In this document: piece by piece, positions 55,414-60,400 of the stretch
Layout: each line of letters starts with the position of its first letter
How positions within the stretch are numbered: position 1 is the stretch's first letter
Assembly: GCA_035601835.1 (NCBI GenBank)
Contig: DATNNM010000011.1
Coordinates: forward strand, 62,001-126,000
Length of the DNA: 64,000 bases
Origin: Candidatus Tumulicola sp.
GTDB taxonomy: Bacteria; Vulcanimicrobiota; Vulcanimicrobiia; Eremiobacterales; Eremiobacteraceae
Reading direction: 5' to 3'
The notes under the pieces: model-generated
Told to the model about the DNA's origin: nothing
The model's input: the letters and a program-made list of their open reading frames with translations, nothing else
Database searches by the model: none
Position numbers and translations under genes: made by a program

Positions 55414-56715
55414 GTGATATGGTGGCTCAAGGGTCCCCGGCGGCCCAGGCGAAACGAACGATGTCAAGGAGCCTCGCGCAACATCGTAACTGATAATCCC
55501 ATCTCGCTAGCGCTCGCCGCGCTGAGTGCGGCGTTGGCCGTTGCGGTCATCGTTCTTCTCAGTCTGCGCTCGAGAGCGCTTGGTCTGCGCGCCGAGCGCG
55601 CCGAGCGGCGCTTTGCCGAATTGGAGAACATCGCTCCTGCGTTGACCAACGCCGCGATGGAGTCTACCGCAGCGACGTGCTCCAGAATTCTCGACCGCGT
55701 CGCCGTGCTCGTGCCCGCTCAGACGCTCCTGTGCTTTTACGTGGACGGCGGCCATTTGATGCTGGGCGCCAAACGCGGCCCGGCCTATATCGAATTCTTG
55801 CGCGAAGGCGAGCCCTACGACGGCGATACGATCGTCGACTGGGTGAAGCGCGAGGCGCGCACGGCCATCACGGGACCTGGCCCGTACGCGACGGTCGGCC
55901 CGATCGACGCGATCGATCTCGGTGCATCACCGACGGGCGCGAAACTCGAGATCGGTCCCATCGCCGGCAGCCGCGACACGCTGTGGGCCGCGGCAGTTCC
56001 GATGCTGCGTCCGCAAGCGCAAGGCCGGCGCGCCGAAGTCGTCGGTGTGCTGTACGCCGACCGCCCGCGCAAGAGCCCGTTCACGACGGACGATATGCTC
56101 ACGCTCTCGACGATCGCGCAGCTGGCCGGTGACGCGCTGCAACGCGCGCGCTTTACGGATCAAGTCCGCCGGACCTCCGACATCGACGGGCTCACGGGGC
56201 TGCTCACGCCGGTGAGTTTCCGGAGGCGTTTGCGCGATGAGGTCGAGACACGGCGTCGCCGCTCGGGCAGATCGTCCGTGGCGCTGTACTTCATCGACAC
56301 GGATCTCTTCAAACAGTGGAATGATCGCTTCGGCCACGCAGCGGGCGATGCGCTGCTGAAGCGGCTTGCCGCGACTTTCAAAGAGCTGGCCGCCCGCACC
56401 GAGGGCTTTGCGGGCCGCAACGGCGGCGACGAGTTCTGCATCGCCGTTCTCGATGGCCGCAAAGAAGACGCGATCAGGCTCGGACAGGACCTGTGCCGGC
56501 GCATCGCATCGGCCGATTTCACGTCGCGCGACGGATCGCCGCACGTGACGATCAGCATCGGCCTTGCGCAGTATCCCGAAGACGTCGATCCCGATGAGCG
56601 GCAGCCCGCGGATCGGCTGTTGGAGACCGCCGACGCGCAGATGTATGAAGCCAAACACGCCGGCCGCAATACGCTGTCGTTCGTGCGCGCCAGACCGATC
56701 GCCGCGCGCGAATAA
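55414..56715 (+). CDS. GGDEF-domain protein (probable diguanylate cyclase) with GAF-like domain
   Basis: About 433 residues. One transmembrane helix (LALAALSAALAVAVIVLLSL), a GAF-like sensor (about 70-240) and a GGDEF domain (about 250-425). The active site GRNGGDEF is intact, so c-di-GMP synthesis is expected. The usual inhibitory RxxD site reads RTEG, so product inhibition at that site is unlikely. The start is unclear: GTG 55414 opens the frame, but the best Shine-Dalgarno (AAGGAG at 55466) has only non-standard codons after it (ATC 55483). Confidence 0.9.
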   Translation: MIWWLKGPRRPRRNERCQGASRNIVTDNPISLALAALSAALAVAVIVLLSLRSRALGLRAERAERRFAELENIAPALTNAAMESTAATCSRILDRVAVLVPAQTLLCFYVDGGHLMLGAKRGPAYIEFLREGEPYDGDTIVDWVKREARTAITGPGPYATVGPIDAIDLGASPTGAKLEIGPIAGSRDTLWAAAVPMLRPQAQGRRAEVVGVLYADRPRKSPFTTDDMLTLSTIAQLAGDALQRARFTDQVRRTSDIDGLTGLLTPVSFRRRLRDEVETRRRRSGRSSVALYFIDTDLFKQWNDRFGHAAGDALLKRLAATFKELAARTEGFAGRNGGDEFCIAVLDGRKEDAIRLGQDLCRRIASADFTSRDGSPHVTISIGLAQYPEDVDPDERQPADRLLETADAQMYEAKHAGRNTLSFVRARPIAARE

Positions 56716-56717
56716 AT

Positions 56718-56757
56718 TGAGGCACTTCGAGTCTCTATGTTGCCTCGAAATGCCTCA
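56718..56757. terminator. Hairpin between convergent genes
   Basis: TGAGGCA-C-TTCGAG pairs with CTCGAA-A-TGCCTCA around a 12-base loop. It lies between the GGDEF stop and the small minus-strand gene. No long T run exists on either strand, so termination is only possible. Confidence 0.4.
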
Positions 56758-56763
56758 TGCGCG

Positions 56764-56994
56764 TTAGACGCACCGCTGTGACGCTCCGTCTTGCGTTCCG
56801 GCATTGTCGCCTCCGACCGCCTCGCCCCAATTGACGAGGAACCTGCCGGCGGCCACGAGCCAGCGCGCGTAGCGGCGGCGGGCAGCGTTGTAGCGCCGCT
56901 CATCGGCGGACGCGCCAAGCCGCAGTCTCGCGACATCATCGCGTACTTCGCCTTGACGCTGGCGAACCGCGTCCAACGAAACCCAGTCGTTCAT
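56764..56994 (-). CDS. Small protein of unknown function (76 residues)
   Basis: Begins MNDWVSLDAVRQRQ and contains a helical, Arg-rich middle (ERRYNAARRRYARWL) and a Gly/Asp-rich tail. No membrane helix and no known family. A very good Shine-Dalgarno (GGGAGGTGAG, from 57011 down) precedes ATG 56994 by eight bases. It is the only minus-strand gene here and follows the candidate RNA unit at 57074-57302, so it may be that unit's downstream gene. Confidence 0.6.
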   Translation of the reverse strand: MNDWVSLDAVRQRQGEVRDDVARLRLGASADERRYNAARRRYARWLVAAGRFLVNWGEAVGGDNAGTQDGASQRCV

Positions 56995-57015
56995 TGCTCT
57001 CACCTCCCTAACGAT

Positions 57016-57064
57016 CCGGGGCTAAGGCCCCGGCACTACATCTAAAAGCGGCCCCGGCACTACA
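57016..57064 (+). repeat. Dispersed palindromic element copy 6 (variant) and a partial copy
   Basis: 57016-57040 matches the element except A to G in the loop (CTAAGG). A 3' fragment GCCCCGGCACTACA follows at 57051-57064. Confidence 0.85.
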
Positions 57065-57073
57065 TTGGGCCGC

Positions 57074-57302
57074 AAAAAAACGAGACCCCCGCATCGCGGA
57101 GGCCTCGAACACTTTAGACCTGGTAGGCTTTTCCAAGCCTACCTCGTCTGCGATCGCTCAACCCCTCCGCGCATAACGGCAACTCGCGCGATCCCCAACG
57201 GGAGATCGCCAAGATTCAAAGCCGTCAGAAAATTCTTGCTCAAAAAAATCCGTCTCCTGAAACGTGACGTCCCGCTTCGCCTGAGGGCTCGATGCGGTAC
57301 AG
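57074..57302 (-). ncRNA. Candidate structured RNA, unknown class (about 229 nt)
   Basis: Minus strand. Promoter -35 TTGACA (57333-57338) and -10 TAGCAT (57309-57314), spacer 18 bp, give a predicted start near 57302. The transcript contains GCGATC-CCC / GGG-GATCGC hairpin and GGTAGGCTT-(GGAA)-AAGCCTACC (57122-57143). It ends at a strong terminator: 57081-57107 folds as a 12-bp stem followed by seven T. CCGCATC and GAGCCCTC near the 5' end (57283-57297) are complementary to CGATGCGG and GAGGCCTC of the terminator (57089-57106), so the 5' end can close on the 3' end or open the terminator. No ORF is credible. The class is not recognised; SRP, RNase P, tmRNA and 6S motifs were not seen. Confidence 0.45.
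57081..57107 (-). terminator. Strong minus-strand terminator without an upstream gene
   Basis: On the minus strand CGAGGCCTCCGC-GAT-GCGGGGGTCTCG forms 12 pairs with two wobbles, followed by a run of seven T (57074-57080). It cannot serve the plus-strand genes. Confidence 0.8.
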
Positions 57303-57308
57303 AACCCC

Positions 57309-57338
57309 ATGCTACCATGCCAAACGAATCGCTGTCAA
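57309..57338 (-). promoter_or_regulatory. Promoter of the candidate structured RNA
   Basis: Perfect -35 TTGACA with a -10 matching TATAAT at four of six positions (TAGCAT), spacer 18 bp, on the minus strand. It faces away from the sortilin-like gene. Confidence 0.5.
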
Positions 57339-57400: not shown

Positions 57401-60400
57401 ATGAAGCATTTGTGTTATGTGCCGGCGAGCTTCGTGGTGCTCGCAGTCATGTTTGTGTCGAGCGCTGGACGTTGCGCCGAGCCTTACTCGCACCTCGAGT
57501 GGCGTCAGATCGGGCCCGCGATTTCCGGCGGGCGAGTCTCTGCGACCGCCGGAACGGACGCCGATCCTTTCCTCTATTACGTGGGAGCGGCGGATGGCGG
57601 CGTCTTCAAGACGATCGACGCGGGCGGAACGTGGCAGGCCGTATTCGAGAAGCAGCCGGTCGCCGCCATCGGGGCGATCGCGATCGCCCCTTCCAACAAG
57701 GACGTCGTCTGGGTCGGCACGGGCGAAGCGAATCCTCGCCAAAACGTCTCGTACGGCGACGGCGTGTGGCTGTCGTCAAACGGGGGCAAGACATGGCAGC
57801 ACCGTGGTCTTGACGACACGATGCAGATCTCCAAGATCCTCGTCGATCCGCGCGATTCCAACACGGCGCTGGTCGGCGCCCTCGGCGATCCCTATAAGGA
57901 CAGTGAAGCTCGCGGCGTCTATCGCACGAGCGACAGCGGCAAGACGTGGGAGAAAACGCTGTATGTCGGCCCTTCCACCGGCGTATCCGATATGGCCTGG
58001 GATCCGGCCCATCCCGGCGTCGTGTTCGCCGGCATGTGGCAGTATCGCCGGGTACCGTGGAATCTGACGAGCGGCGGTCCGGACGACGGCCTGTATCGTT
58101 CGAGCGACGGCGGCAAGACCTGGCGCAAGATCGAAGGGCACGGTCTGCCTTCAGGCTTGATGGGCCGCATCGGCGTGGCCGTCGCCCCGGGCAAACCGCA
58201 ACGCGTCTTCGCGGTCATCCAGTCAAAGCAAGGCGTGCTATGGCGTTCCGACGACGGCGGCGAGTCGTGGTCGCTCGTATCGTCGAACAGTCTTGTCAAT
58301 CAGCGCGCGTTCTATTTCAGTCACGTCGCCGTCGACCCGACCAATCAGAACCGGGTGCTGGCGTTGTCAGAGGACCTTGCCGAGAGCACCAATGGCGGCC
58401 GCACCTTCAAGAAGATCGCCAGGTCTGTGCATGTGGACTATCATGCCATCTGGTGGTCTCACGACGGCAAGCACCTCATCGTCGGCAATGACGGCGGCGT
58501 GGTGCTCTCGCACGACGGCGGCAAGACCTGGATCTGGCCGGGCAACATCGATATCGGCCAGTTCTATCACGTCGGCTACGACTTGCAAGTGCCGTATCGC
58601 GTGTGCGCCGGCCTTCAGGACAACGCGTCGTTTTGCGCTCCAAACGACAGCCGCAACGCGGCCGGCATCCTCGCGCGCGACTGGTTCGAGATCAACTACG
58701 GCGACGGCATGTTCGTGTGGCCCGACCCGCTCGATCCGAACCTGCTTTGGAACAACACGGAAAATGGCACATACGGCATCTTCGACGTTCGCTCGCAGCA
58801 GAATTATGATGTTTCGCCATATCCTCGCGACTTCAACGGCATGGCGGTCGACAAGTTCAAGTATCGCTGGAACTGGGACTCGCCGATCGCGTTTTCGCCC
58901 CAGAATCCGCGCGTGGCCTACGTCGGCGCGAATGTGGTCTTCCGCAGCGACGATCGCGGGCGCCACTGGACGCGCATCAGTCCCGACCTCACGCGCGACA
59001 TCAAGGAACATCAGCTCGCGTCCGGCGGACCGATCACACTCGACGTTTCGGGCGCCGAGATCTCCGACACCATCCTCGATATCGCTCCTTCCCCTGTGCA
59101 GGCGGGCGTGATCTGGGTGGGCACTGACGACGGTCTCGTTCAATTGACCACCGATGGCGGCTCGCAGTGGAAGAACGTGAGCATGCCCGGCCTCCCCGAA
59201 TTCGGGCAAGTGGAGACGATCGAAGCTTCACCGCACAGCGCAGGCACCGCCTTTGTGGCGCTCAACCGTCATTTCATGGGCGACCGCGCGCCGTATCTGT
59301 TCGAGACCGATGATTTCGGCGTGTCATGGCGTTCGATCGCCGCGAATCTGCCCGCGGACCAATACGTGCGCGCGGTGCGTCAAGATCCGCGCAATCCGGA
59401 TGTCCTCTACGCCGGACTGGAGCAGGGTATATGGATATCTTTCGATCGCGGGCGTTCGTGGTCGAGTCTTCAGAACAACCTGCCGACGACGTCGATACGC
59501 GATTTGCGGGTGCAGCCGCGCGCAAACGACTTGATCCTCGCGACCCACGGCCGCTCGCTGTGGATCTTCGACGACCTCACACCGCTGCAGCAGTTGCGCA
59601 CCGCGCAGGCCGCCGGAACGTTTCTCTTCCAACCGCGCACGACGTACTGGCACTGGCAATGGTCGCCGGAGGAGACCAACGACAACAAGGCTCCCGATAA
59701 CCAGTTCGCGGGCAGCAATCCCGATGTCGGCGTGATGCTCACGTATTACCTCGCCAAACCCGCAAAACAAAGGCCGGAGTTGGATGTCGTCGGACCTGCC
59801 GGCCGGCTCGTGCGGCGGCTCGCCGGCACGCACGACGTCGATGATAAACCAAAACCTTACCTCACCAATCACGCGGGGCTCAACCGGCTTACGTGGGATC
59901 TCTTGGAGAACGCACCCGTGAAATGGATGGGCGCCGCTAAGACGTACCGCGGTCCCGACGGCGGCGCAGAGGCGGTGCCGGGCACGTACACGCTGCAGCT
60001 GAAGGCGGATGGGCGCAACTACAGCCGCACGGTAGAAGTCAAGCCCGATCCGCGAGCGCCGTGGACGGCTGCCGACTACCAGGCGCGCCACGACTTCCTT
60101 ACGACGCTTTTCAGCCAGTATTCGCGTCTCAACGTCGCGCTGAACTCGCTGGACGCGATCCGCAGGCAGGCGAGGGAGCGCTCGAAGTCAGCCGGCGCGG
60201 GGTCGCCGGGCGTGGCGGCGCAAAGCGACGCTCTGATCAAACGTGCGGACGGGATCCAAGCGCTGATCACATCGAATCCGCAAAACGACGAAGACAGCAT
60301 CCTCTATGCGGACAAGGTGCGCGAACGCATCAAGGGGCTGATCGATCAGTTAGGCGAGTCGCTGGGGCCGCCGACGGCGGCGCAGCGTGAGCAGTACGAC

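Follow-up and report, generated by a model that had tools for sequence, protein, structure and literature searches.

The stretch of DNA analysed here (the window) comprises 64,000 nucleotides (nt) of the 2.57-Mb genome of a Candidatus Tumulicola species (contig C11, positions 62001-126000), and the present text concerns a minus-strand unit within it that is made of a leader and of a gene encoding a small arginine-rich protein of 76 residues (56764-56994), which would be regulated through that leader. The promoter of the leader combines a TTGACA -35 box (57338-57333) with a TG-extended TAGCAT -10 box (57309-57314) separated by an 18-nt spacer; it is one of two promoter-like sites in 3 kb, where 0.5 would be expected, and transcription would start from it near position 57302. 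At the other end of the leader, sequence and folding point to an intrinsic terminator on the same strand, made of a 12-bp hairpin (57081-57107) followed by a run of seven T (57080-57074). These two signals, together with two strong hairpins located between them, one of which has a GGAA loop (57141-57124), had been described in a first-pass annotation of this DNA and are indeed present. That annotation had also considered that no credible gene lies in between and that the transcription unit is an orphan, two statements that did not hold: an open reading frame (ORF) of 34 codons, with a TTG start and a TAG stop, occupies positions 57139-57243 of the minus strand, encodes the peptide MSKNFLTALNLGDLPLGIARVAVMRGGVERSQTR, is preceded by a Shine-Dalgarno (SD) region containing AGGAG (57244-57261) and has counterparts in relatives, and the whole region is the leader of the downstream 76-residue gene. 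The SD region of that gene (GGGAGGTGAG, 56995-57010) had been correctly noticed, whereas the distance between the terminator and the start of the gene is 86 nt instead of the ~60 bp given earlier.

Relatives of this unit were sought among 149 Eremiobacterota genomes. Since the leader DNA is too divergent for a direct search, the leaders of relatives were reached through the small protein. A first search retrieved homologues of this protein from seven genomes of the family to which the present one belongs, and successive profiles raised this number to 17, 23 and finally 42 of the 149 genomes. The same order of parts was found at 40 loci belonging to at least 24 genera: a TTGAC -35 box (40/40), a spacer of 17 or 18 nt, a -10 box with a TG extension (TG in 39/40), an SD, a short ORF (24-46 codons), a terminator located 22-39 nt past its stop codon and then the small gene, keeping in mind that picking promoters and start codons by best fit biases the choice towards signals that look conserved. 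A terminator-like hairpin with a T-rich tail was present at all 40 loci, all of which also displayed a stop codon 20-40 nt before the terminator (3.15 expected from dinucleotide shuffles), and an ORF with an SD ending 15-45 nt before the terminator was found at 39 of them (0.57 expected from such shuffles). The surroundings differ from one group to the other, as the unit can be found beside a transfer RNA gene, before the signal recognition particle RNA or after a gene resembling those for enoyl-acyl carrier protein reductases, indicating that it travels with the small gene and not with a neighbourhood. Moreover, in most f2 loci the small gene starts only some 36-43 nt past the terminator, a gap that is too short for a separate sigma-70 promoter. 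A switch-type leader for the small gene, which was one of the options offered by the first-pass annotation, is supported by these 40 syntenic loci.

Duplex computations then revealed that the last codons of the leader ORF (57172-57145) can pair with a downstream strand (57119-57094) that overlaps the 5' arm of the terminator, forming a putative antiterminator. In the window, this duplex is stronger than expected from shuffled sequences (z -2.42, p 0.027), and the same tendency was found over the 40 loci (mean z -2.25; p<0.05 in 23/40; Fisher chi2 277 with 80 degrees of freedom). In an alignment-free test of coevolution in which terminators were swapped between loci, cognate leader-terminator pairs beat swapped ones (0/20,000 permutations), with the same outcome when a single locus was kept per genus. 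Compensated changes are also visible at individual loci, such as L135 (GGGTCGA with TCGACC versus GGGTTGA with TCAACC) and L136 (CCTTCG with CGAAGG versus CTTTCA with TGAAGG). The computed antiterminator overlaps the ORF and excludes the terminator, as in attenuators, and, in most loci, 0-19 nt separate the 3' end of its ORF strand from the stop codon that follows, which places this end within the footprint of a terminating ribosome. Partition function calculations on the nascent RNA showed that the antiterminator occupies the terminator arm with a mean probability of 0.79, compared to 0.53 with shuffled ORF ends (higher than shuffled in 38/40 loci, p 1e-8), and placing a ribosome on the stop codon gave a mean terminator probability of 0.94.

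The first-pass annotation had proposed another switch element, in which the 5' end of the transcript pairs with the terminator region. Such a complementarity can be drawn in the window, but it does not exceed that of shuffled sequences (p 0.34 when the 5' arm and loop are considered, and 0.23 with the whole terminator) and relatives show little or none of it (mean z -0.35 and -0.61, respectively), the conserved pairing being instead that between the end of the ORF and the 5' arm of the terminator. A conserved anti-antiterminator was also considered and then set aside, as it was not above chance or weak at most.

Comparing nine pairs of close relatives, the ratio of nonsynonymous to synonymous changes (pN/pS) ranged from 0.54 to 2.14 for the leader ORF and from 0.18 to 0.67 for the small gene; judging from these ratios, hardly any constraint acts on the leader peptide, in contrast with the purifying selection exerted on the downstream protein. 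Accordingly, it is the act of translating the leader ORF, and not the peptide that is made, that appears to matter. As far as sequence comparisons can tell, what selection preserves is the translation of this ORF, with its start and its end, and not its product.

Altogether, the conserved architecture, the coevolving and mutually exclusive pairings, the maintenance of a frame without conservation of its peptide and the purifying selection acting on the downstream protein fit with ribosome-mediated attenuation, and we consider it very probable that the leader is a transcription attenuator of this kind for the small gene. The leader would then be both transcribed and translated. RNA polymerase starting near 57302 would make a leader containing the 34-codon ORF. 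If this ORF is promptly translated up to its stop codon, ribosomes would cover its end, the 5' strand of the antiterminator would be unavailable, the terminator (57107-57081) would form and transcription would end as a ~230-nt RNA (OFF state). If translation falters, with ribosomes stalled early or scarce as a result of an amino-acid shortage or of a translation inhibitor, the free end of the ORF would pair with the 5' arm of the terminator, so that no terminator would form and RNA polymerase would read through into the small gene (ON state). The direction of this response and the nature of the inducing signal are suggested by analogy with known systems and by RNA folding, and the choice between the two states would be made before the 3' arm of the terminator is transcribed. 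The antiterminator would enclose the GGAA-loop hairpin, an apical hairpin (TAGGCTTGGAAAAGCCTA, that is TAGGCTT-GGAA-AAGCCTA, 57124-57141) that holds the stop codon of the leader ORF. The other strong hairpin, read from the fold, lies inside the leader ORF (GCGATCTCCCGTTGGGGATCGC, 57188-57209) and may act as a pause or as a competing hairpin; a similar one is visible in L011.

Several observations weigh against ribosome-mediated attenuation. The pairing between the ORF and the terminator individually falls short of p<0.05 at 17 of the 40 loci, at least four of which (e.g., L010, L031, L052 and L134) give no sign of pairing whatsoever, and loci within one genus are related, so not independent. 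A control region, taken from the 5' portion of the small gene, likewise displayed a slight preference for its cognate terminator, far smaller than that of the leaders (-0.9 versus -4.8 kcal/mol; 303/20,000 permutations) and attributable to a composition effect. Listing the 40 leader peptides and looking at their composition did not uncover any shared run of regulatory codons pointing to a given signal. Finally, the terminator is favoured at equilibrium in the full leader of the window when no ribosome is present (P 0.98), meaning that antitermination would have to be kinetic.

We also considered other explanations for this locus. The short ORF might encode a functional microprotein and be followed by a normal terminator, the small gene being a separate unit, which would account for the recurrence of an SD and an ORF across loci and for the short motifs, such as MNGV..CG, that are found repeatedly in some f1 leaders. 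The near-neutral pN/pS of the ORF, the peptides that cannot be aligned between genera and whose shared motifs mostly coincide with the pairing element, the scant room for a promoter ahead of the small gene and the coevolution of the ORF with the terminator nevertheless make this very unlikely. Control of the terminator by a ligand-binding riboswitch, or by another structured leader that does not involve translation, would be consistent with the alternative terminator and antiterminator folds and with the strong folding of the whole leader transcript (229 nt, compact fold, z -5.2), even if this z value is in part due to two very strong hairpins. We nonetheless give little credit to this explanation: no conserved aptamer-like sequence was found, the 5' region varies freely and pairs with the antiterminator strand at chance level (mean z -0.05), the conserved features are the SD, the frame and the position of the stop codon, and covariance-model searches of Rfam, either strict or permissive, gave no convincing match and none at the gathering score (including for the 6S RNA family RF00013).

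The last of these explanations, also put forward by the first-pass annotation, is a stand-alone structured or 6S-like regulatory RNA. A strong promoter and a strong terminator do surround a compact fold of 229 nt, and the terminated leader could still serve as a small RNA by-product. This proposal is however largely refuted and highly improbable, not only considering the Rfam results, but also because the real 6S RNA of this genome is encoded elsewhere (G000:C3, another contig, 91.6 bits), because the linkage to the small gene is fixed and because searches with the whole leader DNA matched only short pieces in relatives, most of them at the terminator or adjoining it, as expected from a leader that diverges fast.

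The ribosome-mediated attenuator proposed here follows a logic that is already known from other bacteria. In Actinomycetota, translation of an upstream ORF (uORF) ahead of whiB7/wblC favours a Rho-independent terminator, while disturbed translation leads to an antiterminator and to read-through into a small stress gene (PMC11550727). This is the logic that we propose for the Eremiobacterota leader, although in another phylum and with an unrelated downstream protein, which matches no Pfam or NCBIfam family, contains hardly any cysteine and does not qualify as a WhiB-like iron-sulphur protein. In Sinorhizobium meliloti, a 29-codon uORF precedes duf1127_1, a gene encoding a small arginine-rich protein of unknown function, and attenuation depends on the translation of this uORF, with Rho proposed to act instead of an intrinsic terminator (PMC12218461). 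The type of target is then alike, a small arginine-rich protein gene under uORF-dependent attenuation, but the Eremiobacterota leader would rely on an intrinsic terminator and on the final third of its uORF, and its small protein does not match DUF1127. The attenuators of trp, his and ilv operons share with it a leader peptide, mutually exclusive antiterminator and terminator structures and the position of the ribosome as an input, but the Eremiobacterota leader has neither a regulatory codon run nor a biosynthetic operon downstream. Similarly, attenuators of antibiotic resistance genes (vmlR, lmo0919/rli53 and erm-type) also include a short ORF or leader and a conditional terminator possibly responding to ribosome inhibitors, but the protein encoded downstream of the Eremiobacterota leader is not a known resistance factor. 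Our literature search found no paper joining Eremiobacterota with leader peptides. The predicted attenuators represent a new family of a known kind, adding a widely conserved example, without a match in the literature searched, for a largely uncultured phylum. Their logic resembles that of two unrelated systems, whiB7/wblC and duf1127_1, where a gene with an unknown or stress-related function is coupled to translation efficiency, and it offers a tangible hint about what a small protein family, undescribed in the databases searched, might do.

Across the set, this small protein has 59-76 residues and is composed of 19% arginine, 17.5% alanine and 0.6% cysteine. Searches of Pfam, NCBIfam, Protein Data Bank sequences and plasmids, as well as a fold search, gave no match that would identify it, and DUF1127 (PF06568) was not among the Pfam matches at E<=1 of the 19 members scanned. 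A match of one f2 member to Phage_tail_APC, with 20.7 bits for a cut-off of 26.6, was set aside as weak. An AlphaFold model displayed one long helix and was uninformative (pTM 0.35). We tentatively suggest, as a speculative possibility, that the protein serves Eremiobacterota as a translation-stress factor of a kind not described before, which might for instance bind ribosomes that are stalled or idle, and that its induction depends on a sensor of translation failure in general and not on a single amino acid or drug.

Downstream of the small gene in the window, a hairpin followed by AATTTATT (56711-56756, minus strand), as read from the sequence, probably marks the end of the transcript. Between the terminator and the small gene, a direct repeat (GGCCCCGGCACTACAT) is found in two copies that are 24 nt apart (57026-57065), and its exact 15-nt core occurs genome-wide at only these two places. 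On the other side of the leader, a divergent gene starting at 57402 encodes VPS10/sortilin-like repeats, as read from its sequence; its nearest named relatives, from Candidatus Eremiobacterota, are 75% and 66% identical, which places the genome in that phylum, and no leader was found beside the VPS10-like gene on the named contigs that were inspected when scanning genome contigs with this gene.

Some loci displayed additional features. At L015 and L038, the gene that comes after the small gene is also short, cysteine-rich and metallothionein-like (MDNVSCAHEACLCTIS... and MENPKACGHPSCGCTIS...); it has no Pfam match and is probably co-transcribed with the small gene. At L010 and L012, a long hairpin with the common segment AAAGCGGATAGAACGC, or a sequence near it, lies between tandem copies of the small-protein gene, the second copy having no leader of its own. 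The second copies L034-L037 have no leader either, and two protein matches (L142 and L145) were rejected as they lack a leader. L142 (G104:C39) is a weak match to the small-protein profile that lies behind a TTGACA/TATAAT promoter, without a leader ORF, and this promoter is flanked by GTTACAGT repeats that look like operators. Finally, tandem short intergenic repeats (CCCCTTCAGTATGTCCGTG) and inverted repeats (GGGGCCGAC...GTCGGCCCC) are found downstream of the small gene at L035 (G002:C4).
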